NCBI GenBank assembly: GCA_037042915.1
Contig: CM073194.1
Coordinates: 744,001-808,000, forward strand
Length of the DNA stretch: 64,000 bases
Origin: Auricularia sp. M13
Taxonomy: Eukaryota > Basidiomycota > Agaricomycetes > Auriculariales > Auriculariaceae
Reading direction: 5' to 3'
Under the pieces are notes generated by a model. That model was given only the letters and a program-made list of their open reading frames with translations, searched no databases and was not told where the DNA came from. The first letter of the stretch is position 1, and each line of letters begins with the position of its first letter. Of this stretch, positions 27,223 through 61,918 are shown in pieces. A program made the translations under genes and the position numbers.

Positions 27223-30200
27223 TCATACGCGCGAACTCTCCGGGGGACCAAGGTAACTCGGTAGCAAACCGCCCACGTCCACGACCTGCAGGTTTGAAAC
27301 AAAGGATCAGCTTCCATCGTACAGACAACACCCATAAGCAGCGCACGCACAAATTTCTCAAATACAACGCCGGGAGTCATCATCGAGATTTTGAGCGAAT
27401 GCTTTCCCGGCGCGACGTCCTCGAAGGTAGTTGTGACGACGCGCACGCCATTCGCGACGGCGTCGTTCCAGTCCGGCGGGACGTACTTCTCCGGGGGCAG
27501 GAGGGGCACGGGCTGGACGGTCTGTACCGCGCCGCCATCCAACGAGATGCCGTACAGCAGCGGGCCGTCCGCGAGCAGGTTGAACGACGAGAAGAGATGC
27601 GCATTCACGGTGTATGTCGTCGAGTTGCCGCCCGTGGGCGTGTTGAACGTGAAGAAGTCGTATTCAACCGATGGCTATCCAAGGTATCAGCAGTCGAACG
27701 ACACCCTAAGACGAACAAAAAAAATAAAACGCACACCAGCGCCCGCAGCGAAGTTGGGTGCAAGGCCTGGAACGTTGCTGACGCCCGAGAACGCGCGGGT
27801 GCCAAAGGCTGGGAACGCAGCAAGGCTGACCCCGTCAACTGGCGTGTTTCGCGACCAATGCTCTGCCTCCATAGACTGCGCACATCAGAAAAGCTTCATC
27901 ATTAGCGCATGCTGGACGCACCACGACACCGTCGGCCTCAACGAAACCCTTGAAGCCGGAAGGAGGGGTTGTCTTCACTGCAGGTACAGTGACGTTGACA
28001 GCGTCGCCAGCGCTGGATTGGAACATAACAAGCCCATTCTGCACACCGCCGCCGGACGGGAACTTCGTCCAGTCAACTGAAAATTCAACGCGGTGCGGCA
28101 AATCGGCCGGGCCCACGCGTCCTTTGCCGTTGTTCACGACGAGCCACGGTGCAAGACTGGTCGCGGTGTACGTGAAGGCACTGGGCCCGCTGGGCGAGAC
28201 ATCGATATAGCGCGACTTGGGGCCATACGGCGAGAGCGTCCCAAGCGTCGGCCAGCCGCAGTTGTACCCGTCCTTGCAGTTATTGCGGTTGTCGCCTGGC
28301 CACGCGCCCACACTGCCTTCGGCAGTGATGCGCATGACGCCCGCCAGCGCCGGCGCACGCGTGCGCACTTTGCGTAGCGGTGGTAGCGTATCCTGCATCG
28401 GCTAGAGCAAGAAATCAGCCTAGCTGGACCAGACCACCACGACCGGCGCACCTGCTGCCAGTAGTAATACCCCAGATGCGTCTGGTCCATCATATGGTCC
28501 CACTTGCCGCCCTGGATCGTATGGTACTTCTCCCGCAGGTCCCAGTCGACGTCGAACGCATCTTCGACCAGTTGCGCATAGACATTGGCCGAGCTGCTCG
28601 CCTGGCTTGCTAGATCTTCATTCTTCTTAGCCGCTATGTACAGCGCATGGAGGTTGGCAGTCGCCGCGACGGGGTGCAGCACAGTCTGGAAGAACGCGTC
28701 CTGCGCCGCGCGTGGAATCTGTCGGTTGACATTTTCAGTGGCGGCGAGGAGCTGCTGCCATTGCGCGTTGTACGTGTCGGCCTCGCGGTAGTTGATGGTC
28801 GAGAACGTCGCGGGCGTCGTCAGCTCCGGCTTTCGGATCGCCGTCAAGCGCGAGAAGGTCGATACGATGTTCGATATCTCCTTGGCGAGCGTCGGCGCAA
28901 CATGGAACTCGCGCTGTGCCCAGTTCGCGTAGTAGTCGAGCAAGTTGTTGCGGTCGCTGGAACGGGAATTTAGTACAAGACAGCCTAGATATGAATCGCC
29001 ACGCACAATGCAGACGTGTTGTAGGCCATGGATAGGAAGAATTCGGTCGGTATTTCGTTCGCTTTAAAGTCGCCGACGTTCAAGATCCAAACCCGTGTCG
29101 CATTGTACTCGACCGCAAGGTTTAGCTGCTGATAAGACTGTGCGCTGCGGAGACGACATGTAAGAGCCAGGCTGGTCTTGCTGTACGCAGACGCACTTGT
29201 TGATTGTGTTGATCCATTTGTAGTCCACTGGGTCGCCAACGTCTGTATGAACTCGATTAGCATCGTCATCGGTCTACAGGTGACAATATAGCACGCACAA
29301 TCGACGTGGAAGTAGATCCCCGCGCCACCCCAGCGGCTGCGTTCTGCGTCGCTCGGCAAGCGCTGGATGTGGCCCCAATTATCATCCGTCCAGAGCAACG
29401 TAATGTCGTCCGGCACACGCATGCCCATGTTGTAATAGTTCTGCACCTCCTTGTACAAGCCTATGCGAAGCGTCAACAACGCGAACTCGTAAACCGCTGC
29501 GAGGACGTACACCAGACTTGCGGAACAGTCGAGAGATCAATCGTGTTGAAGACATCAGCAAGGATTTCACGCTGCTCTACACCGAAGTAAGCTCGGAGTC
29601 AAGCTGCGCAGAGCGTGAGAAACACACTCTTGATAACTCGCTCGAGCAAGTCGATGTTTGTAGTCGGGCCAAGTGGCAGGTCACCGGAGCCGCGCATGCC
29701 GACGGTGACGACGTTCTCGTACGGCGCGCCGCGCCGTGCGCCCTCTATGAAGTATTTCTGCAGCAGGAAGGTGAGCAACAAGACCAGCATTCCAGGTGCG
29801 TATGCCAGACATACGGTGACATTCTCCGGGTTCGACTCGAAGCTCCACGTGCCCAACCCCAAGCGATTCCACTCGACAGGGCTCGAGCGCATCATGGGCT
29901 CCTGGTGCGAGGTGCCCATGACGATGCCGTAGTAGTCCGCGAGGAACTGGTTCATCGGGTCGTCCAGCGCAAATGCGCTGTTCCAGATCGGCGGCCAGAA
30001 GTAGTTGGCCTTCAGGCGCAGGAGGACCTCGAAGATGAGCACGTAGAAGTTGGAACGGAAGGATGGCAGGTCCGACCCTTTGGGGCGCAACTTTTCCTCG
30101 GCCCACTTGGTGATGGAGGGCTGCTCGTCGTTGATGAAGCTATCCGGCACCGTGAGCCGGGGTAGGAGGTAGGGAGGGAGAGGTTCTATCACGCACATGC

Positions 30201-30928
30201 CGCGGTATTGCACGGTCGGCGACCCCGCGCTGCAGTCAGAGCCTTTGACAATGTATACGCCGTTGTTCCGCTGCACGGGCGGCGTATCCGTCCAGTAATA
30301 CCTAGGTTCTCCGGTCACCCTTCGCTGTACACATCAAGTACAAGAGCGCATACCATGGCGAAACACCCAGCTGCTCAGATACGGTGTACAGACCAAAGAT
30401 GGACCCGCGCTTGTCAGCGCCGACAATGACGAGCGCATCTTGTGCACGGTCAGTTGGGATTCACGAATGTCACGCGACGAACGGCCCACCAGAAATACCA
30501 GCCACGGGCTCAGAGACGTGCTTCAAGACGAACGACTCCCACTTGCCCCGGATGGCAGATACATCGAGCTTGCCCGCCTTGACGAATTGATCCACCAAAG
30601 CCGAGCGGCCGAGCGTGCCCACGATAATGGCAGCAGGCGTTTTCAACGGCTTGCTCGCGCCAGAGATGGTGTAGTTGACGACAGGAAGGAAGCTGCCAGT
30701 CGTACGCTTGAAGTCTTCGCTAAGGTCCTGCGCGGCGCGCTGCACGCCCGGCCAGTCTGTGGGCGAGGTGACGATGGGCGGGAGGTTCGCGCGCTGCCTC
30801 GGCGCAAGGAGAGGCGCAGCTTTCGCAGACGGCGAGAACACCAGACACTGCGGCTGCACGACCGGGAGGACGACCGCCACGCTTCGCGCTGCGAACGCGA
30901 GCGCGAGCGCAAACGCGGAAAGCTGCAT
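27223..30928 (-). CDS. GH115 xylan alpha-1,2-glucuronidase, copy 2
   Basis: A second GH115 enzyme, collinear with copy 1. It starts with a clear signal peptide (MQLSAFALALAFAARSVAVV), then VVQPQCLVFSPS, PTDWPGVQRAAQDLSEDF, PAAIIVGTLGRSALVDQF, WYYWTDTPPVQRNNGVY, DDPMNQFLADYYGIVMGTSH, SGDLPLGPTTNIDLLE, MRVPDDITLLWTDDNWGH, RVWILNVGDFKANEIPTEFF, GKWDHMMDQTHLGYYYWQQ and a C-terminal domain ending LLPSYLGPPESS. Intron positions appear shared with copy 1 in most places, which supports gene duplication rather than independent gain. No frame break found. CATAAAAGG near 30963-30972 may serve as a TATA box. Secreted; it would act with xylanases on glucuronoxylan. Confidence 0.9.
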
Positions 30929-32528: not shown

Positions 32529-33728
32529 ATGAGCTCCCTTGCTCTGCCCTCAGAGCTTTGGGTGATCATCTTCGAGCGCATCGCCAACCTCGGCGTTGCC
32601 CATCATGATCCTCGCGGGCTCAGGTCCAGAGCGGAGAGCAACTCGCTGTTATGTTCGTGCGCTCTTGTATGCCGAGCATGGACGTCCCCCGCACAGACAG
32701 TTCTCTTTAGATCCATTCAGCTGGGAACCAGAATCTCCAGGGATAATACACCGGCCGTTGGGGACACGACTGACTCGCTGAGGGACGTCTACATAATTCT
32801 CAGCCAGCGCGCCACGCTTCCTAGCCTCGTTCGCTCGGTTCACCTCGGCGTAGACTTGGAGACCTCTGCGCGCGATGCCCCAGCCGTCTATATCACCCAC
32901 TCCCGCTTACCGGACGTTCTAAACGTCATCGCGCTCTGTCCCCAACTCATACACGTCAACATACTAATCGGTGCTGCTCCCCCCAACGACGGCACAGTCA
33001 CACCGCCTTTCTTCCACGAATCTGCGATTGCTCGCGCACTGGCTTCGAAGCCGAGGCTGTCGCAGCTGACAATCAGCAATCTATACAACGTGGGGGTCTG
33101 CCACGAATTCGGATTGCAACATCCCTCCTCCGCGGTGGCGCATCAGTTCATCCACGCAGTGTCGTCTTCTCTGACCGTGCTGGACGTTCGTCTCACCGCC
33201 GCGGACGAATGGTTCGTGCTTCTTCCGAGGTTTCCCAAGCTGAAAGAGCTGCGCTGTTACTCGCACTCCACGGAGCACTTCACCCTAACAGCCTCATTGC
33301 GCGCGGTGCTACGGGAAGGCTGCCCAGCCCTGCGTCGCGCGCGTCTGGACGGGATCGACGGGGAGGTGCTTGGAGCCATACCAAACTATATAACCCACCT
33401 TTCTCTACGCACTTCCGTTGGGGCGGAGGCTGACGACGCCGACCTATCGCGCTTCCCCTCGCTGCGGCACCTGGAAATAGATACAGGCAGTGGCGCGAGC
33501 GTGGTCAGGCTTTTACGGTACGCGCCCCCGACTCTGCGGTCCCTGAGGATTCCGGTGTTTGCCTTGTGGTCGGCGAATGATGCGATGGCTTTCGAGGCGG
33601 CGTTGTGTGGTCTCCCTGCGCTCGAACGCCTGATCATAGTTCGACGGTCGCCTCACGTTGAATTTGTCATGCCGTCCCTTGCTGCAAACGTCGATGTTGT
33701 AGACGATGTGGGTGAACCGTCGCGGTGA
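32529..33728 (+). CDS. F-box domain protein
   Basis: An intronless gene of 399 residues. The first 60 residues form an F-box-like motif (LPSELWVIIFERIANLG, then CALVCRAWTSPAQTVLFRSI), which recruits substrates to SCF ubiquitin ligase through Skp1. The rest has irregular leucine-rich strands (LPSLVRSVHLGVDL, FPKLKELRCYSHS, FPSLRHLEIDTGS, PPTLRSLRIPVFAL, LPALERLIIV) like the leucine-rich repeats of the large agaricomycete F-box families. The domain order and length are typical. Target unknown. Frame is open throughout, with the ATG at 32529 directly before the F-box. Confidence 0.85.
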   Translation: MSSLALPSELWVIIFERIANLGVAHHDPRGLRSRAESNSLLCSCALVCRAWTSPAQTVLFRSIQLGTRISRDNTPAVGDTTDSLRDVYIILSQRATLPSLVRSVHLGVDLETSARDAPAVYITHSRLPDVLNVIALCPQLIHVNILIGAAPPNDGTVTPPFFHESAIARALASKPRLSQLTISNLYNVGVCHEFGLQHPSSAVAHQFIHAVSSSLTVLDVRLTAADEWFVLLPRFPKLKELRCYSHSTEHFTLTASLRAVLREGCPALRRARLDGIDGEVLGAIPNYITHLSLRTSVGAEADDADLSRFPSLRHLEIDTGSGASVVRLLRYAPPTLRSLRIPVFALWSANDAMAFEAALCGLPALERLIIVRRSPHVEFVMPSLAANVDVVDDVGEPSR

Positions 33729-36139: not shown

Positions 36140-38420
36140 TCACTGCAACTTTTCCGTGCACCACAGGATGCTCGTGACACCACGCGGGTAGTATTTGCTG
36201 CCTTGCGCAATATGGTCGATGATCTGGTCGCTGCAAACAACGCCGTCAACATCCGGCCCAAGGACGGAGGACAAACATACCTCCACGCCCAGTACGAGTT
36301 GTTCTTTTCGCGGTCCGTGAGCCACGCCACGTGCGCCCGCTCGGCGGCAGGGTCCTGTGCCTCGCCTAGGATCGCGCGGGCAACGTACTGGCATAGATAC
36401 GTCTTGCTCAGCCACGAGTTGGTGCTCGTGCTCGACAGTTTCCACGCGCCGCTATCGAACAAGCACACGCCTGGCTTGAGGACAGCGCGAAGGTGCACAC
36501 CCAGCGCCTTGACGTAGTCTGCGTACGGCCCGTCCGACTTCAATGCGTCCTCGCGCCCCGTGAACCGCGGGTACACAAGCGCCTCTATGGCGGGGATGAT
36601 ACGCGCCGGGTGGGGCGGGTCGAGGTGCATGATGGCCGGCAGCAGGCCTGTCTTAGGGTCTACGCTGCCCGTGATGGTCCCCGCCGCGCGCTGCGCCTGC
36701 TCGCGCGCGAGTGCCGCGGCGTCGGCGTCGCCCGCATCACCCAGGATCTTCTCGAGCGCGAGGTACGACGCCCAGCACTTGCCGCCGATATAGACGTTGT
36801 CCGTAGCCTGGCCGAGCGACGCGTCGAGCGAGTCATACGTCGTGATCTCCGACCCGCCGTCCGTTCGCGACGAGTTGCACTGCATCACGCCGACGCGCTT
36901 CGCCGGGTCGGGGTGGTCGCGGTTGACGAGGCTGAGCAGGCACTCCTTGAAGAGCGCCTTGTGGCGCGACAGGAAGTCCGCGTCCTGCGTCTTCGAGACG
37001 TACATGGCCGCCGTGAGCGTCCAGTTGGTCAGCTGCTCGCACGTCATATAACTGAAGCAGTCCGACAGATGGGGGCGCTCGTAGACCGAGTAGTGCGGCG
37101 GGCTAATGTGGTTGGCGACGCCCATGTCGTGCGTGAAGGACACGCCGCCAGGGAGCAGCTTTGTGCGGTCGGATGGGTGCGATACCTGGTCGGTATAGGA
37201 ATGCGTCTTCGCGTATGCGTCGAGGTTGTTGCGGACAGTCCACGGGTTCATCGCGAGCTCGAAGAAGCAGTGGTCGATGACGAGGTCCAGCGTATTGATC
37301 ATCCTGGACGCAGATTATTCTATAACGAACGCTGGCCTGTCCACAGTGCGCACCTGTACTCGCCCTCGTTGACAATCCAAAACGGCGTTCCGTCCACAAG
37401 CTGCAGGAGCTGGGTGCTGCCATAGTAGCTATGGATCGAATGCACGAGTTGGAAGAGCTGGTGCTGGCTGAGCGACGGATTCTTTAGCAACGAGCTGCCC
37501 GGCTCGCGCCAAAGCTTAACGAGGCGATCGTGGTGCGCGACGGCGTACTTGGCGACATCACGGGCCGACTTCCACCAGCGCGTGTACAGATAGCTCGCGT
37601 CGAGCCCGGTGGTGACGATCCCCTCGCGGTGGAAGCAGACTGCAAAACGGAGCGTCGTCTTCTCGCCCGCGGGTACATTAGACACCAGCGCAGCGCATCC
37701 GCCCAGCGACGTGGTGGGGTCCTCGGCCGGCAGAAGGACTGCCTCCAGGTCAAACCCCACGCGGGCGCCGACTGTCCCATTGAGCGGGACGAGAGCAAGA
37801 TTGCGGCCTTGTCCGATGCCGTTGAGCACGCCGAGCTCGCCGTGGTGGTGCTTGAGGTAGTGCAGCGCAAAGTCCCATTGCGAGTCGGTGGAGCCGAAGC
37901 CAAAAGCAACACGGCGCGTGTGCTTCCCCTTGGAGTTGTCCACGGCGATTTCGACAAAGACGGCGGGGAGGAGCACGTCCTGCAGTTCCGCGTCTGAGGC
38001 CGTCGCGGGATCGGGGATGCTCAGCACGGGCGAAATAATTGTGAACCCCAGGTCGCCCGCGCGCCACGTATCGGTGGTGAGGGTGTATTCGCGCGAAATG
38101 GCCTCGTCAGGGAACGTCCTGACCAGATTCTCCTGCCGCGCGATATCCGCTGCCGTATAGTTGGCCAGCGAGCCGTCTGCGGCGCCGAAGAACGGCAGGA
38201 AGTCGAACGTCCCGGGCTCTTCAGCGCTTTCCAGGGCGATGTAAACATTCTGGTCGGCGGGTTTGCCGATCTCGTGTCCAAAGCCACCTGCGACAGCATC
38301 TCAAAATGGCCTGGGATGGATATCCACGCCCAACACACCTTTGGGACCTTTCTCGCCGAGCGTAAAGGAGGCAAACGCGCCGATGGGGGAGTGCTGAGCG
38401 TTGAAGAATACGGGAGCCAT
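36140..38420 (-). CDS. GH52 beta-xylosidase, intact and intron-containing
   Basis: GH52 enzymes release xylose from the non-reducing end of xylo-oligosaccharides with retention. Four exons (38420-38339, 38287-37354, 37303-36281, 36230-36140) read without a break into 709 residues, close to the roughly 705 of Geobacillus XynB2. Matches run from end to end: MAPVFFNAQHSPIGAFASF, GKPADQNVYIALESAEEPG, TTDTWRAGDLGFTI, VNEGEYRMINTLDLVIDH (the Glu of NEGEYR is the known nucleophile position), GVSFTHDMGVANHISPPHYS, EITTYDSLDASLGQATDNVY, RIIPAIEALVYPRF, STNSWLSKTYLCQYVARAIL and GSKYYPRGVTSILW. No signal peptide, so probably cytosolic, working on imported oligomers. GH52 is known mainly from bacteria; three typical fungal introns argue against contamination. 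Lies 5 kb from a GH115 gene. Confidence 0.92.
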
Positions 38421-38829
38421 GGCTGGGCGCGGTTACGACGTGGCCAAGAGATTTCATACATCCCGTCGAGGATTTTATAGGGACGAGGGGCCGCTGTAGC
38501 TTCGGTCGCTGCGGTCCGAGTGCCTGTCCCCGAGTCCGAAAATTCACCGGTATAAACCCCAGCAGTACGGGTCCAGGACGCAGAACAGCAGAGCTAGCAG
38601 GCACATAGCAGGCGCAGGATCTGAGCCCGACATCCCAGATACTAATCGAGGTTGCAAATCCACAAGCGAAGCGAAGGACGCACGACACGGTTTCAATCTC
38701 CGATTGCGCTCTTCAACTGAAGGCGGCAGCGGCCAATTGCTGGAGCTACTTACGAGGGTGAGAAGGCACGGTCTCGGATCGATCCAATGCCATTCTTCAA
38801 TTCCACGGGGCGGTCCGTGCAAACGACGA
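38421..38829. other. Upstream region of the GH52 gene
   Basis: About 0.4 kb containing the GH52 promoter. No supported gene. Confidence 0.45.
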
Positions 38830-39130
38830 TCGTATGACGACGACGAAGAGGAAAATCCAGAGGACGGTGTGGCGGATAAATGAGCAGGCGCGTCGATTTC
38901 GTTCGCTCAGTTGCGTCGACGACTGAGCCGTAAGTCGTGAGCAAATCGGCGGTAAAAGTGGACGGCGACGCTCTTGCTATTGTCCATTCCGGCGCAGGTT
39001 ATCTGCGTCGGCTGCTTGTTGACGTCCATGGGTAAGTCCAAGTCGTCGTATAGGGCCATGGACGTCACGGTGGTCGGGGAGCAAGAAGCGCTCAACCGTG
39101 CAAACTCCGACTCGCGCTCCTTGTTCGCCA
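38830..39130 (-). pseudogene. Fragment copied from the 5' end of the AT-hook gene
   Basis: Read on the minus strand, this stretch encodes SEFARLSASCSPTTVTSMAL and PMDVNKQPTQITCAGMDN, clearly the same as SEFARLSASYSPTTMMSMDL and AMDVYWQPTQIPCAGLDN at 42.35-42.51 kb. Base similarity starts at AACAAGGAGCG (upper end near 39125) and runs for about 300 bases before fading near the CACCGTCCTC site. Only the 5' leader and about the first 75 codons were copied, so it cannot encode the full protein. The ATG used by the parent gene is GTG here. A truncated, silent gene duplicate is the simplest reading. Confidence 0.8.
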
Positions 39131-39419: not shown

Positions 39420-40802
39420 TTATGCCTTATGCTCCATCTCCTCCTTCCACCACTGAAAAGACAGAGTCAGAAGCGAATCCACGAAAAGTTTGGGTACTCA
39501 CCGCAACGCTTCGCCGGATGCCTTCCTCGATGCCGACGTCGGGCTCATAGCCCAACACACGGCGGGCCTTTTCGATGTTGTGCCACCGGTGCGCACACGC
39601 CATCGTGACGCGGAAGCGGGTGAACGTGGGGTTCGCCATGAACAGGCCGAGCACGAGCTCGGACAGCGTGCCGAGGACCATGGCGAGCGAGCGAGGCAAC
39701 ACCACGACGCGCTTGTCGACGTTGAAGCCGTCGCCGTACGCGGCCCAGATCGCGCGCGCGTACGACCAGAAGGGAATGGGCTCGCCGTTGGTGATGAAGA
39801 ACGCCTGGCCGGCGACGGCGAGCGGGTCGGGCTCGCTCGGGTCCGTGCTGCGGTCCGACGCGTCTAGCGCCGTCGGCGCGAACTGGTCGAACTTGGAGCG
39901 CATCACGGGCGTCGCGTGCTCCGGGTGCGCGGGCGGCGACGAGGGGATCGGGCGCGCGGCGAGCGTCACATTGATCGACGGCAGGCGCGACTCGACGTCG
40001 ACGTCCGGATGGCCGCCCGCCACGAGCTTCTCGGCCGCCAGGAGATGCGCCTTGACGACGTTGTCGACGTAGGTCGCGTCCCAGAGATTGTTGTTGTCGC
40101 CCAGTTGGAAGCCGTATTTGCCTTCCTTCAGCACCTTGATGAAGCCGGGAATATTCTGACGATCTCCCGGCCTGTCACAGGCTAGTTTGAGAACGACTTG
40201 AACCGTTCCAGGATGATCAGCGTACCCAAATATTCCTGCTGGCCGAAGAGCAACAGTCTTAAGCTTCCCATGGCCGTTGGCGTTGAGCACCAGCTTTTCG
40301 CCTTCGATCTTGGTAGTGCAGTATTCGTCCACAGGATTTGACGAGTACGGTACGCGTTCGTCCACGTCGATCAGGTCGCGACCGTCGAAGACAACCGACG
40401 CGCTGCTGGTATATACCAGTGTCGGCACGTTGGATGCAAGGCATGCAGCAATGACCGAGCGCGTCCCCTCGACATTGACCTTCCAATATGTGGACTTGGG
40501 AACCTCTGGCGACGCTAGGGGCGAAGCGGTGTGAAATACGACGGTTGCGCTAGTCTACACGCGAGTTAACCGTTAAAATACTTCAAAAAGGACTCTTGGA
40601 GACATACTTTTCTTATGGCATTTTCCAGGACCTCCTGGTCGCACATATCACCAGTGAAAAATTGGACGCGGTCATCGTGGTACCGCTGCACAATGTCGAA
40701 GACGGCTACGGAGGGCTCGCCGCGGGCCAGAAGCGTCTTGACAATGTTCCAGCCGACGAAGCCACAGCCGCCAATGACCAAGTACGACTGTCGAGTGCTC
40801 AT
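39420..40802 (-). CDS. ERG26: ERG26-like sterol-4-alpha-carboxylate 3-dehydrogenase (3-beta-HSD family)
   Basis: This short-chain dehydrogenase removes the C4 carboxyl group and oxidises the C3 hydroxyl in ergosterol synthesis, at the endoplasmic reticulum. It begins MSTRQSYLVIGGCGFVGWNI with the NAD-binding GGCGFVG. Then come VFHTASPLASP, LVYTSSASVVFDG, the catalytic YCTTK, ALRPAGIFGPGDRQ (joined across an in-frame intron), YGFQLGDNNNLWDATYVDNV, AFFITNGEPIPFWSYARAIW and a C-terminal membrane-associated stretch, ending RRSVAWWKEEMEHKA after the last intron. At least four exons. All motifs of the family are in order. Other 3-beta-HSD relatives in fungi look similar, so the enzyme name is strong but the substrate is inferred. 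Confidence 0.85.
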
Positions 40803-41231: not shown

Positions 41232-42449
41232 TTAGACGGTCCGCTGCACTGGCCGGTCGTACTGGCTGCAAATAGCTTCTATGGTTTCAATGTCGAACCC
41301 GAGCGAACCGAAGGACGTGTCGGACGTGTCCGCCTCGTCGTCCTCAGGCTGGGCCGACTGCGCGGGCACAGGAGCGGACACTTTGGCGGGCGCGGGAGGA
41401 GCTGGCGCTGGCGCTGGAGCAGAAGCGGAAGCGGGTGCAGGCGCGAGGGGCGGCTTGAAAGGTCGATAACCCGCAGCAGCCGAATTTGACGAGGAAGACG
41501 AAGACGACTTGGCGCTAAAGCTAGAGCTGACAACGTTCACGGGCGGACGGCGCATGCCTAGCGCCTTAGCCGCCGTGCGCGATTGGGACGAGGTGGGCAC
41601 GAACTTGGGTGGCTGGGGTTTCTCCGCAGATCGAGCTGGTGCTGGTGCGGCAACAGCTGCAACCGAAGAGGACGAGGCGGCCGCGCCTGAAGCTGAAGCT
41701 GCAGAGCGGAAGACAGGCGGTGGCGCTGGATTGCGGGACGAGACCACTGAAGGACGGGACGACGACGCCGATGTTTTGAGTGACGAAGAAGACGTAGACG
41801 ACGGCGGATGCAAGGCCGCGCGCCGCGGGTGCATGCCCAGTAACCCGCCATTGCCGTGTTCACCGGCGCTGGCATCCGCATTTATGCCTTGGGTGCGTGG
41901 CGCACGCTCGGGAAGCGCGTGCCTCTGTGGTGCCACACCAACAGAACCAGAGTCACCGTCGACATCCATGGTGTCTGCTTCGCGCACAGAGGCCGGCGTT
42001 GGTTGGCGCACGCTCCTCAAGCTTGCGAGCGTGGGCGGTGAGCCGAGCAGGCCGGAGACGGTAGCGACAACCAAGGTCTCCATCTTCTGCTTCATGACAA
42101 TTTGCGCCTCCGTCCGTGGCACCGCTGATTTGCGCGGTGGGCGACCGCGCGGCCGGCGCTGTTGCGACTGGGACGAGCTTTGGCTCTGACTGGACTCCGA
42201 GCCAAACGACGAAGACGTGGATGAGCCGGAGGACGGTGCTGGTGGGGCCGGGCGTGTTGCTTTAGTTTCTTCAGCTGCGTATATGAGGAACCCGGGAGAT
42301 GTGAGCAATTTGACGGTCAAAGCGGACAGCGATAACGCACCGGCTCTGCGCTTGATATTGTCCAGCCCAGCACAGGGTATCTGAGTCGGCTGCCAGTAGA
42401 CGTCCATGGCCGAGTCCAGGTCGTCGTCGTCCAAGTCCATGGACATCAT
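41232..42449 (-). CDS. AT-hook, Ser/Ala/Pro-rich putative nuclear protein
   Basis: A single long exon of 405 residues. The first ATG in frame is at 42449 (MMSMDLDDDDLDSAM); a TAG lies in frame 60 bases upstream. Residues 15-60 form the only compact-looking part (VYWQPTQIPCAGLDN, LSLSALTVKLLTSPGFLIYA). Residues 97-107 (QRRPRGRPPRK) are an AT-hook, a minor-groove DNA-binding motif. The rest is low-complexity Ser, Ala and Pro, with an acidic run near the end and a conserved-looking C-terminus (FGSLGFDIETIEAICSQYD). No further domain recognised. The gene is divergent from GPI8 with start codons only 60 bases apart, and part of its 5' end is duplicated at 38.8-39.1 kb. A good GTAAGT donor in the leader leaves room for an upstream exon. 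Confidence 0.7.
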   Translation of the reverse strand: MMSMDLDDDDLDSAMDVYWQPTQIPCAGLDNIKRRAGALSLSALTVKLLTSPGFLIYAAEETKATRPAPPAPSSGSSTSSSFGSESSQSQSSSQSQQRRPRGRPPRKSAVPRTEAQIVMKQKMETLVVATVSGLLGSPPTLASLRSVRQPTPASVREADTMDVDGDSGSVGVAPQRHALPERAPRTQGINADASAGEHGNGGLLGMHPRRAALHPPSSTSSSSLKTSASSSRPSVVSSRNPAPPPVFRSAASASGAAASSSSVAAVAAPAPARSAEKPQPPKFVPTSSQSRTAAKALGMRRPPVNVVSSSFSAKSSSSSSSNSAAAGYRPFKPPLAPAPASASAPAPAPAPPAPAKVSAPVPAQSAQPEDDEADTSDTSFGSLGFDIETIEAICSQYDRPVQRTV

Positions 42450-42509
42450 GGTGGTCGGGGAGTAAGAAGCGCTCAACCGTGCAAACTCCGACTTACGCTC
42501 CTTGTTCTA

Positions 42510-44646
42510 ATGCGATTGCCTGCTGCGCTGCTCGTTCTTTCGCTAGCCCTGGCGCCGGCGACGGCTCAGGCTGCTACTGCACATAAGGCTGCCCAAGAGT
42601 TCTTCGCGCCCCATGCCTCAAACCATACGAACAACTGGGCTGTGCTGGTCAGCTCGTCAAGATACTGGTTCAATTATCGCGTGCGCACGCTGCGTCTTAC
42701 AATTAATATTACTATATTGATTGACGTATTTTGCCTAGCATATGGCGAATGCTCTGGGCATGTACCGTACCGTGAAGCGACTGGGAATACCTGACAGCAA
42801 CATAATCCTCATGCTCGCCGACGACGCCGCCTGCAGCGCGCGCAATCCGTATCCTGGCGCTGTATATGCGAACGCAGGTCGTAGGTATGTAATGCTCCCG
42901 CACTGGGAGCAGGGCTGGGAATCTCTTGAGTAGCTGACAAATATCTTGCCTTGACGTTTCAGATAAATGGCATGAGTTTCCCCAGAGTATCCACAGTAGT
43001 TCCAGCTATTATACTCGTGAGAATCTCATGCCATTTATTTGAATGCCAAGGCAATACATTTGTCAGCTATTCAAGGGATCTTCAGCCCTGCTCCCAGCGC
43101 CACCTTCACGGCTTTGACGTGATCATAATGTTACAGGCTCGACCTGTATGGCGACAACATCGAGGTCGACTATCGCGGCTACGAGGTCACTGTCGAGGCA
43201 TTCGTTCGTCTGCTCACTGGTCGCGTGCCCCCAGAGACTCCGCGCAGTAAAAGACTACTTACCGATGATCGGTACATTGTTAAGATTCCGACTTGTTTGT
43301 GCTACATTTCGCTGAGGAAGCATACAGGAGTAACGTATTTATCTACATGACCGGCCACGGAGGGGACGGCTTCCTCAAATTCCAGGACAATGAGGAGATA
43401 TCCAGCTGGGACCTCGCGGACGCCGTCGAGACGATGTGGCAGAAGAAGCGGTGCGTGAGAAAGAGAGGCAATACACCCAAATCAAAGCTGACTTGCTTTC
43501 TACAGGTACAACGAGCTCTTCTTCATGGTCGACTCGTGCCAGGCGAGCTCGCTCTACTCCAGATTCTACAGCCCCAACATCCTGGCGACTGCAAGCAGTC
43601 AAGTCGGCGAGAACTCGTATGCAGTATGATATGCCTCGGCAACGTTACATTCTCCCTGTCTCGGTTCTGACGTTTAAATTTCCCTCGCAGAAGCAGCGCG
43701 ACTGGGATATCGGTGTCTACGTCATCGACATGTACACGCATCTCGTGCTTTCTGTGCTCGAAGGCGTCAACAAGACGAGCGCCATGACGATGGAAGATCT
43801 GGTGCGTGTGTCTGCCACATATACACTCTTCCCGTATTTCGCGCGAGGTGCTGTCACTTGGAGCAGGGCTGAGAATCCCTTGAGTAGTTGATGAGTATCT
43901 TAGCTTGACATCCAGCCATTTTACTCTTGGGAAACTCTGTGCCATTTATCAGAATGTCAAGCCATGATACTTCAACTACTCAAGGGATTCTCAGCCCTGT
44001 TCGCAGACCAGAGTCTCTGTGATTGTGCATGAGACTGGGCAGGGCCACGGCAGAGCACTGTCGCCCTCCTTGTCTGTCATACGCGAAGCAGTGTTCGCAG
44101 GCGTGCGTCCACTATGTGATCGCCTGTATTCCAGTCGGGCCTGCCATGTCTTCCATTGTGAGCTTGTACACTGGCAGTGCCCTGCATCTGCGCTCGCCTG
44201 GGCACAGATCCACATACGTATTACCTCTTCATAGGGGTCATCTCCCTATCTTCCACTTCACTCCATGATGAAATCAAGCTTGTTGCTTACTTTACTCTGT
44301 GTTGCAGTTCTCCGAGTACGACTTTAAGAAGATTAATTCCACGGCGGGCATCCGGGCGGACCTCTTCCCGCGCCGGCTGTCCCAGACGCGGTTGACAGAC
44401 TTCTTTGGCGGCGTTTCGCAGGCGGAGGTCGTCGCCGTTGTCGACTCCGCGATAAGCATGCCCAATGAAGACGAAATGGCTGCCTGGCACGATACTCGGA
44501 GGGAAACGGAGGAGAGGGAGGAGCCAGTTGCGGTGGGCGTCGAGGAAGTGACGAGAAGCTCACAGGGCCGCCGGCGCACCGTGGGCAGCTTCGCTGCTCT
44601 CGGGATGTTGGGCGCGCTGGTGTGGAACGTTGCACGGAGCGGGTGA
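42510..44646 (+). CDS. GPI8: GPI-anchor transamidase catalytic subunit (GPI8/PIG-K)
   Basis: This caspase-like cysteine protease in the ER membrane attaches preformed GPI anchors to proteins. A signal peptide ([21 protein letters not shown]) is followed by [82 protein letters not shown] (catalytic His in GHGG), [20 protein letters not shown] (catalytic Cys in DSCQA), [33 protein letters not shown] and [13 protein letters not shown]-terminal membrane helix ([15 protein letters not shown]) ends the protein. About seven exons. Two introns are unusually long because each carries a palindromic MITE (42903-43097 and 43857-44006). No frame damage seen. Confidence 0.92.
42903..43097. mobile_element. 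195 bp palindromic MITE in a GPI8 intron (copy 1)
   Basis: The two ends (42903-42976 and 43024-43097) are inverted copies of about 74 bases, near 88 per cent alike, starting CTGGGAGCAGGGCTG. The loop between them is about 47 bases. It has no coding capacity. It lies inside the intron after NAGRR. No convincing target duplication is visible. Confidence 0.85.
43857..44006. mobile_element. 150 bp palindromic MITE in another GPI8 intron (copy 2)
   Basis: Same family as the element at 42903: ends CTTGGAGCAGGGCTGAGAAT and its inverted partner, with arms of about 55 bases that share long stretches such as GGGCTGAGAATCCCTTGAG. The centre matches copy 1 (CCAGCCATTTTACTC against CCAGCTATTATACTC) but is shorter. 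It lies in the intron of about 0.5 kb before FSEYDFKK. Confidence 0.85.
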
Positions 44647-54430: not shown

Positions 54431-55947
54431 ATGCGCGCCGGTCTCGGGTTCCTCCTCGCCATTGTGGCCTCTGTGGTCAGTGTTGCCGCTGAAAGCACTG
54501 TGCGGACGACGACGAAGCATCTGCGCGTGGCAGAGTCGCAGGTCGGATGTGGCCAAGCGGCAAGCTGCAGGACCCCAGCCCATTGGTCCAGATGGCAAAG
54601 GAGCTCTGCTATTGGGTACGCAGTCATTCTCAGCCCGAATGTTGGGAAGTCCCAGTCGACCCTTTGTTCCGAAGGCGGCACAAACGCCGCGCTAGATGCC
54701 CAGCAGCCTGACAACCTTGTTCCTCCTGGGACCGACAACGGCGTTGTTGTCAACCTGAAGTGGTCGTTCTCCGACTCGCACATGCGCCTCCTCAATGGTG
54801 GCTGGGTGCACGAGCAGGTGAGACTGGTTGACTAACGATGCTGGGCCGAGAAGTACTCACGAACCTGCCAGGCTTTAACCGACCTACCTTCCAGCAAAGA
54901 CCTTGCAGCGGCTCAGCAGCATCTCAAGAAGGGCGCCACGCGCGAGCTACACTGGCATCGCGTGGCCGAGTGGGGCATTCTGACGCATGGCAGCGTGTTG
55001 GTACGCATCTTGTATTCATCTCCCATAATGTGCTGAGAAAGGAAATCGCACTGGCAGGTGACAGCAGTCGACGAGGCAGGCAAGAATGCTATCTGGACGC
55101 TCAACGTCGGCGACATCTGGTACTTTCCCAAGGGCTCAGGGCATTCCATCTAGGGCCTCGAGGATGAGAACGAGTATCTGCTTATCTTCGACGACGGCGA
55201 TTTCGACCGCGCCGGGACGACGTTTAACGTGGATGATTGGCTCGTGCATATCCCGCCGGACGTTCTCCTGAAGAACTTCGGGTCAAATAAGCCGTCGGAC
55301 GTCTTTGCGGGCGTACCAAAGCCAGACCCGTACATCGGCCCCGAAACCCCATCCAAGATTGTCCCTCCCAGCTCAAATGGTCAGCTCGCGGGTCCAGGGT
55401 CGTACGTCTTCTTCCGGAGCAACAAGACCGCGACCGAGGTTCCCGGAGGTGGCGGCATGCTGGCCATCGTCGACTCGAGGAACTTCCCCATTGCGACCAC
55501 TATCGCTTCAGCAATAGTCACGCTGAAGCCCAAGGGGCTGCGAGAGCTTCACTGGCACCCTAACGTGCGTCTTGTGGCCATTTCTCCGTGCCGCGCACGG
55601 TTTCGCACCCAGTCTCACCCTTGCCTGGGCAGGCCGACGAGTGGCTCTACATTCACAAGGGAACCGCGCGCGCGACGGTCTTTTTGGGCGGCTCCCTCGC
55701 GAGGACGTTCGACTTTACCGCGGGCGACACAGCCGTTTTTCCCGATAACTCGGGACATTACATTGAGAACTCCTCAGAGACGGAGGACCTCGTGTGGTTT
55801 GAGATCTACAAGAGCGATCGCGTGGCGGACATTTCGCTCACGCAGTGGCTAGCGCTGAGCCCGGCTGACCTCGCCGCTCAGATGCTTAACGTCAGCATTA
55901 ATTTTGTTCTCCAGTTGAAGACGCAGAAACAGCTTCTCCTTGTATGA
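54431..55947 (+). pseudogene. Oxalate decarboxylase (bicupin) with an in-frame stop
   Basis: The enzyme turns oxalate into formate and CO2 with manganese; wood-decay fungi secrete it to control acidity. Two cupin domains are visible. Cupin 1 has ELHWHRVAEW (His, His, Glu metal ligands), TAVDEAGKNAIWTLNVGDIW and YFPKGSGHSI. Cupin 2 has ELHWHPNADEWLYIHKG and TAVFPDNSGHYIENSSE. A signal peptide opens at 54431 (MRAGLGFLLAIVAS), and about six introns are seen. At 55151-55153 the frame reads TAG between GHSI and GLEDENEYLL; related enzymes have glutamine (CAG) there, so a single C-to-T change explains it. The code downstream remains clean, which suggests a recent loss, a sequencing error or an allele. 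As written, the protein stops before cupin 1 is complete. Confidence 0.8.
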
Positions 55948-60722: not shown

Positions 60723-61169
60723 TCTGGTCACTGAGCAAGAAGCACGGGGATAATTAAAGGGTTTGTAAGCCCGACTCGGTCTGCTCTTTTGGGATAGGTA
60801 GGTGGCTGCGATCGTCAAGTCGAGTCCAACGGCTGGCTTGTTGTCTGGCCATCCTCTGGCTTTCCGGGACTTTCTAGGCCTACAGGTAGTTTGGCACCAA
60901 CCTTAGCTGACATCCAAGGGTTACGGCCAAAGCCCACGATCGGGCGTAACGCTATTACACCGTCATCGGCCGCCGCTTGGTCCTCCACGGCCCAAACAGG
61001 CGTTCGGCAGCTCCTATATGCGGCCATACTTAAGGCGAGGCTACCGTTTATCTGCATCCGCTCTTCCCCCACGGACCCAACGGATTTCTTGCTTTCTCAA
61101 ACTTATCGCGCTCCTCGCTTTCAATTTTACGCCACTGCACTTGGATCGTCGACTTTGAAACTGGTCAGA
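60723..61169. other. Divergent promoter region
   Basis: About 0.45 kb between the HAD start and the WSC-CBM1 start; both promoters lie here. No gene seen. Confidence 0.5.
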
Positions 61170-61918
61170 ATGCTGCTGTCATGCTCGCTCGCCTCGCTGT
61201 CTCTCTTCTTCATTTGCACATCCGCTTTGGCCGTGACAAATCCCAGCGCCGGCGGACAACGCCAACCCGAACACGCTCGCGACCTCTCGCGGCGCATGAT
61301 CACCATCGCACCCTTTCACCCCTCCGACTCGCACTCCTTGCCCTCTTCGCCTCACATCGAAACCGTGGCCGCACCAGCCGCAGGGTGGGCCGTCCTCTCC
61401 GCCTGCGCATACGACGACCCGCGCCTCCTCCTCGACAAAGTCTCCTTCCCCCTCCCCAACGACAATACGCCCGCAGCCTGCATCGCGCACTGCGACCGCG
61501 CGGGCTACCTCTACGCCAGTGTCGAGTACGGCCGCGAGTGCCGCTGCGCGCCCGACATCGACAACGAGTATCTCAAGGAGGTGGACCCGCAAGATTGCGA
61601 TACGGTGCGCAGCAGCACTGAGCACAGAGACAGGGTGCTGATGTCGCTAACTCGAATGCTCGTAGCCGTGCACTGGGGACGCCTCGAAGACGTGCGGCGG
61701 CGCGTTCCTCACGCAGCTCTACCGCAGCACGACGACCACCGGCGAAGCGCGCCCGTATGGGCAGTGCGCGGGACTCGGGTGGCGCGGGCCTACCATATGG
61801 TGCGTTGCCACTATTAGGAGGCAACGCTTGCTGACGACTTCGATGGTGTAGCCCGAAAGGTTTCCGCTGCAAATTCCTCAACATTCTCTACTCGCAGTGC
61901 AACAAAATAATCTCTTGA
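61170..61918 (+). CDS. Secreted WSC domain protein with C-terminal CBM1
   Basis: Three exons (61170-61604, 61666-61799, 61852-61918) give 211 residues in one frame. Signal peptide MLLSCSLASLSLFFICTSALA. Residues 76-168 are a WSC domain, a cysteine-rich carbohydrate-binding fold: SACAYDDPRLLL, TPAACIAHCDRAGYLYASVE, GRECRCAPDID, DCDTPCTGDASKTCGGAFL. Residues 176-211 are a fungal cellulose-binding module (PYGQCAGLGWRGPTICPKGF, then LNILYSQC) with four cysteines and the usual aromatic positions, one of them Trp. No catalytic domain is present. The protein probably binds plant or fungal wall glycans; WSC alone is known in wall sensors and enzymes, so the role of this pairing is open. Confidence 0.85.

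Follow-up and report, generated by a model that had tools for sequence, protein, structure and literature searches.

The window, the whole stretch of 64,000 nucleotides of DNA that was analysed, includes an intact gene for a 709-residue protein of glycoside hydrolase family 52 (GH52), which lies on the minus strand (38420-36140) and is interrupted by three introns. The gene structure, the family, the conservation of the catalytic residues, the host-like codon use and the eukaryotic-style neighbours of this gene are established here. The best explanation as a whole, to which we give a probability of roughly 0.7, is that the product is a working cytosolic GH52 beta-xylosidase of a filamentous fungus, and that its gene was acquired long ago from a bacterium and has gained introns and host codon usage since.

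Gene structure and chromosomal setting

The spliced model of the GH52 gene is composed of four exons and three introns, all read on the minus strand. Exon 1 (38339-38420) begins with the start codon at 38420 and is followed by intron 1 (38288-38338; 51 nt, GTGTGT...GCAG), which has an in-frame stop inside. Exon 2 (37354-38287) codes for the N-terminal domain as far as the motif NEGEYR, and exon 3 (36281-37303), which lies between intron 2 (37304-37353; 50 nt, GTGCGC...CCAG) and intron 3 (36231-36280; 50 nt, GTATGT...GCAG), codes for the bulk of the C-terminal catalytic domain. Exon 4 (36140-36230) includes the segment SDQII...GSKYYPRGVTSILW and the stop codon. Besides the spliced model, exons 1 and 4 are supported by alignment to bacterial GH52 proteins, exon 2 by the Pfam match and exon 3 by the PDB matches. 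All three introns have the GT...AG form, the lengths of introns 2 and 3 are no multiple of three, and when the DNA is read without splicing the frame ends in a stop after 39 residues. Comparison of the spliced product with two bacterial GH52 sequences shows no gap at the junctions GPK/GGFG, NEGEYR/MINT and YWAW/SDQII. The sequence-only reading had described an intact 709-residue model with three short introns in correct phase, and this description proved correct in detail, as the same length, exons and splices were recovered. A pattern search for the branch site CTRAY gave no match in any of the three introns. A candidate TATA-like element is found at 38473-38479 (minus strand), 59 nt upstream of the ATG; as to its chance level, 26 out of 2000 shuffles of the letters had TATAWA within the final 100 nt.

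Genes of eukaryotic style are found on both sides. At 5 kb from the GH52 gene and on the same strand there is a GH115 alpha-glucuronidase gene (27780-30928, minus strand; Pfam PF15979; PDB 4zmh and 4c90), whose spliced model reaches 27780 with the 3' end further on. Its product has a signal-like N-terminus, and its coding region is divided by at least 11 introns of 46-57 nt, the 50-51 nt introns of the GH52 gene being in the same size class as these 11. The other neighbour (39430-40802, minus strand) is a sterol-4-alpha-carboxylate 3-dehydrogenase-like gene of the ERG26/NSDHL type, which belongs to the 3-beta-HSD family (PF01073) and has a sterol-4-alpha-carboxylate 3-dehydrogenase (PDB 6jkg) as its closest solved relative. 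It includes at least two exons, of which the separate N-terminal one was read by eye. Between the GH115 and GH52 genes stands a 399-aa frame on the plus strand (32529-33725) whose N-terminus bears a weak resemblance to an F-box (21.1 bits, under the Pfam cut-off of 24.3). In codon usage, the GH52 gene correlates at 0.92 with GH115, at 0.86 with the ERG26-type frame and at 0.79 with the F-box-like frame, compared with 0.32-0.60 for four bacterial GH52 genes.

These results bear on the idea that the GH52 gene is a bacterial contaminant or part of a misassembled contig. Against it are the three spliceosomal introns that the frame requires, the host-like codon usage (0.79-0.92 with the neighbours), the intron-bearing genes on both flanks, and the identity of just 53.5% between the protein and the closest of 109 bacterial rows. 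The chance that this idea is right appears negligible, and for practical purposes contamination is ruled out by the introns, the codon usage and the flanking genes, which place GH52 in the host chromosome. It had been claimed from the letters of the DNA that contamination was unlikely and that fungal neighbours lie on both sides; we agree on both counts, the neighbours being the intron-bearing GH115 gene on one side and the ERG26-type gene, of eukaryotic or fungal style, on the other.

Other features of the window include an 85-nt direct repeat, 89% identical (39042-39126 and 42423-42507), that flanks the sterol dehydrogenase-like gene, and a 59-nt inverted repeat (42900-42958 and 43042-43100) whose arms are 83% complementary and separated by 83 nt, possibly a small mobile element. 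A cupin-domain frame (55154-55849) and a WSC-domain frame (60798-61814), both on the plus strand, exceed the Pfam cut-off. The GC content varies between 51 and 68% in 2-kb steps; together with the dense, very short introns (46-57 nt in the GH115 gene) and the style of the genes, it suggests that the host is probably a basidiomycete. No RNA family reached the gathering threshold in the window, and no tRNA was found in it by ARAGORN with the bacterial code.

Family membership and catalytic residues

The sole Pfam family found in the 709-aa protein is PF03512 (Glyco_hydro_52), matched at residues 19-440 with an E value of 2.1e-140 and a score of 468.8 bits against a cut-off of 25, and with positions 1-413 of the 413 in the profile covered. 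A phmmer comparison revealed matches to the GH52 beta-xylosidases of PDB entries 8qme, 4rhh and 4c1o (E 4.9e-226 to 1.2e-224) over residues 4-706, which also cover the C-terminal remainder beyond the Pfam match; the protein is thus near the 700 residues of GH52 enzymes and aligns end to end with the solved chains. NEGEYR and GSKYYPRGVTSILW are both present, so that the earlier claim of a full-length GH52 match, including NEGEYR and the C-terminal motif, is borne out.

A close relative of known structure is GT2_24_00240 of Parageobacillus thermoglucosidasius (PDB 4c1o and 4c1p), whose catalytic residues are reported as Glu-357 and Asp-517 (PMC6887791). To map these residues, the first Glu of NEGEYR was taken as Glu-357 and 160 residues were then counted along the 4c1o chain. 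The equivalent of Glu-357 is E335 (codon at 37365-37367, minus strand), the predicted catalytic nucleophile, and that of Asp-517 is D496 (codon at 36832-36834, minus strand), the predicted acid/base; these positions are occupied by E and D, respectively, in 109 of 109 bacterial rows. By this mapping and the alignment, the catalytic Glu and Asp of GH52 are unchanged. The window protein resembles GT2_24_00240 and the chains 4rhh and 8qme over residues 4-706 and has the same catalytic Glu and Asp, while it differs from GT2_24_00240 in sequence (52% identity to 4c1o), in the three introns of its gene and in the fungal-style chromosome in which this gene is found.

Among the 115 columns that are at least 98% conserved in the 109 bacterial rows, the window protein retains 110 and departs in five (A45, T506, A572, E660 and H686). 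Arg at position 506 and Gly at position 686, both invariant across the 109 bacterial rows, are replaced by Thr and His (exons 3 and 4), and Asp at position 660, present in 108 of 108, is replaced by Glu. Since T506 and H686 take the place of residues found in every bacterial row, altered properties are possible. An intact frame with a changed function, be it another substrate or an inactive relic, would be compatible with any origin of the gene, and the five departures as well as the long branch of the protein in the trees described below can be counted in its favour. However, the nucleophile, the acid/base and the motifs around them are intact, and five departures fall within the range of the bacterial members, which departed in up to 7 such columns when each was left out in turn (the 12 highest of the 109 rows being listed). 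We therefore consider a loss or change of function decidedly unlikely, and a working GH52 enzyme remains the preferred reading.

Distribution of GH52 genes

The genome_contigs collection includes 219 confirmed GH52 stretches, the best 80 of which were kept. In the phylum of locus L082, a GH52 match was found in 34 of 387 genomes (31 above the cut-off and 28 at E <1e-100), and in that of locus L003 in 14 of 398 (14 above the cut-off and 11 at E <1e-100); none of 14 control genomes had one. Bacterial GH52 is widespread but patchy. Several loci (L090, L093-L102, L104-L106 and L112-L116) are roughly 37-45% identical to the window protein; a number of them are long-branched, and they may differ in specificity. 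Matches on plasmids amount to 2 of 72,556 records, one of them (603-2638 of Kitasatospora fiedleri plasmid 2, locus L002) being an actinobacterial GH52 gene broken across several reading frames. Carriage by viruses or phages was considered and dropped, as all 55 candidate stretches in viral_contigs failed confirmation and the phage collection gave no GH52 match.

Phylogeny and origin

From 119 loci examined, 109 bacterial rows were kept and ten were dropped, namely the broken Kitasatospora gene (L002, L083 and L084), duplicates of L036, L003 and L082 (L085-L087), a partial sequence (L103) and three loci with no blastp hit (L117-L119). The first tree was thinned at 80% identity to 61 rows including the window protein, and the second and third were built from 48 and 47 hand-picked rows. 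In all three trees, which are unrooted and include one fungal row, the window protein lies inside the bacterial family at a branch with 100/99 support, in a group that also includes most of the Bacillota rows, one Lentisphaerae record and a small number of relatives. Its own branch is long (1.24-1.67 changes per column, with the midpoint taken as root in these unrooted trees).

Within this group the protein joins no single bacterial line with confidence. In the free trees it falls outside Bacillota; when it was constrained to group with Bacillota, the AU test did not reject this grouping (p values of 0.097 with the Kitasatospora fragment and 0.538 without it), and in the latter case the constrained tree even surpassed the free one by 0.54 log units. 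The Bacillota group in these tests comprised 29 rows up to L081 and excluded L112 and L116, which are of the phylum of L003 and belong to a far group. In the second tree the window protein was paired with the broken Kitasatospora plasmid gene at 96/91. The two have in common 10 residues seldom found among the bacterial rows, but L100 likewise has 10 in common with Kitasatospora. Since, in addition, both sequences form long branches and the letter make-up of the Kitasatospora row is odd, an actinobacterial donor is not claimed.

Inheritance from a common ancestor of fungi, or of eukaryotes, followed by loss nearly everywhere would suit the long branch and the loose attachment of the protein, both of which could reflect great age. 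On the other hand, provided that the midpoint root is right, the 100/99 branch puts the protein within the bacterial family and not outside it, and very many losses would be demanded. Vertical descent thus seems highly improbable. An old transfer from a bacterium, followed by intron gain and adoption of host codon usage, is most likely the simplest and best reading of trees that include one fungal sequence, and the best bacterial identity of 53.5%, together with the host-like codon use and the three introns, suggests that the event is old. We infer the transfer, and also its direction, given the long branch and the midpoint root. The sequence-only reading had proposed an old horizontal transfer with later intron gain; the nesting among bacterial sequences in unrooted trees with a single fungal sequence, the patchy distribution in bacteria and the host-like codons lend this proposal partial support.

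Another route would be a single entry from bacteria into fungi, for example into the line of Umbelopsis and its kin, with later passage from fungus to fungus. A GH52 enzyme of Umbelopsis was described in 2021 as a typically bacterial enzyme, possibly obtained by horizontal transfer (PMC7928374), and a survey published in 2013, which covered 103 fungal proteomes, reported GH52 in one zygomycete (PMC3652786), so that more than one fungal line may hold the family. The same survey reported none in Basidiomycota or Ascomycota, which argues against such a route, and we consider it rather unlikely in comparison with a direct bacterial origin.

Proposed function

The N-terminus of the window protein has no extension, its residue 4 corresponding to residue 5 in both 4rhh and 8qme, and its peak hydropathy (1.52) is close to the median of the 109 bacterial rows (1.49), the start of the neighbouring GH115 protein reaching 2.40. 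The absence of a signal peptide noted earlier is consistent with these values, which give no signal-like start. Given a start at the same point as in the solved bacterial enzymes and an N-terminus that does not exceed theirs in hydrophobicity, the protein is expected to act in the cytosol.

Four of six bacterial GH52 loci, in a scan that covered 20 out of 54 neighbouring frames, are near genes for sugar ABC transporter parts, GH10 or GH43. Among the scanned frames, the neighbours of L021 include sugar ABC transporter parts, GH10 and an aldose epimerase, those of L036 sugar ABC transporter parts, those of L003 sugar ABC transporter parts and GH43, and those of L082 GH43; no transporter parts, GH10 or GH43 were found among those of L024, and those of L007 include a member of the tagaturonate epimerase family but no transporter or xylan gene. 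The neighbourhoods of these four loci are in line with xylan use, and, by analogy with the bacterial genes that lie near sugar transporters, the fungal enzyme would release xylose from xylo-oligosaccharides after their import. Its likeliest role would then be that of a cytosolic retaining beta-xylosidase acting on such oligosaccharides; we infer its activity, its location and the import route as parts of the explanation given above.

Secreted xylanases, together with the GH115 alpha-glucuronidase whose gene lies at a distance of 5 kb, would produce the substrates extracellularly. This alpha-glucuronidase is of a secreted type and would remove glucuronic acid side groups there, and the resulting xylo-oligosaccharides would be imported into the cell. 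Acting in exo mode on xylobiose or a short xylo-oligosaccharide, E335 would attack the anomeric carbon of the xylose at the non-reducing end, and D496 would give a proton and then take one back, as in a retaining mechanism. The free xylose released could enter pentose metabolism. That GH115 and GH52 work as a gene pair is a guess from their nearness. A full xylan gene cluster was considered and discarded in favour of a pair only, as apart from GH115 no other xylan gene or transporter was found by Pfam among the 30 frames scanned, out of 89 stop-to-stop frames with 170 aa or more. As a tentative extension, which we regard as possible but with the odds against it, a basidiomycete line may have taken GH52 independently of Umbelopsis from an unsampled bacterial branch, possibly actinobacterial, and its placement near the secreted GH115 may have produced a two-gene glucuronoxylan locus that combines de-branching outside the cell with trimming inside.

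Relation to known fungal enzymes

GH52 had been called a family known mainly from bacteria. It is indeed of bacterial type, but fungal members and the idea of transfer had already been published (PMC3652786, PMC7928374), so that neither is new and the surprise is smaller than the sequence-only reading implied. Like the window protein, the Umbelopsis enzyme is fungal and transfer has been proposed for it (PMC7928374), although Umbelopsis (Mucoromycotina) is of another phylum than the probably basidiomycete host of the window; the zygomycete enzyme of the 2013 survey is also fungal, and the entries given there for Basidiomycota are zero (PMC3652786). A description of fungal CAZyme portfolios tables GH52 as a beta-xylosidase family, with no species given there (PMC7998857). 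In the GH52 literature consulted, we found no GH52 protein assigned to a named basidiomycete. The white-rot fungus Obba rivulosa, a basidiomycete, is reported to have intracellular beta-xylosidases of family GH5_22 (PMC9330253), which have the same presumed intracellular job but belong to another family than the window protein. The job would thus have a precedent; what would be new is the family that performs it.

Should the host prove to be a basidiomycete, the range of a family regarded as bacterial would extend into another fungal phylum, and the gene would be a clear and testable case of a fungus adopting a bacterial sugar-trimming enzyme. GH52 would then also be an added intracellular route of xylan use beside enzymes such as the GH5_22 beta-xylosidases reported from white-rot fungi, and a GH52 enzyme adapted to a eukaryote would be on hand for enzyme work.
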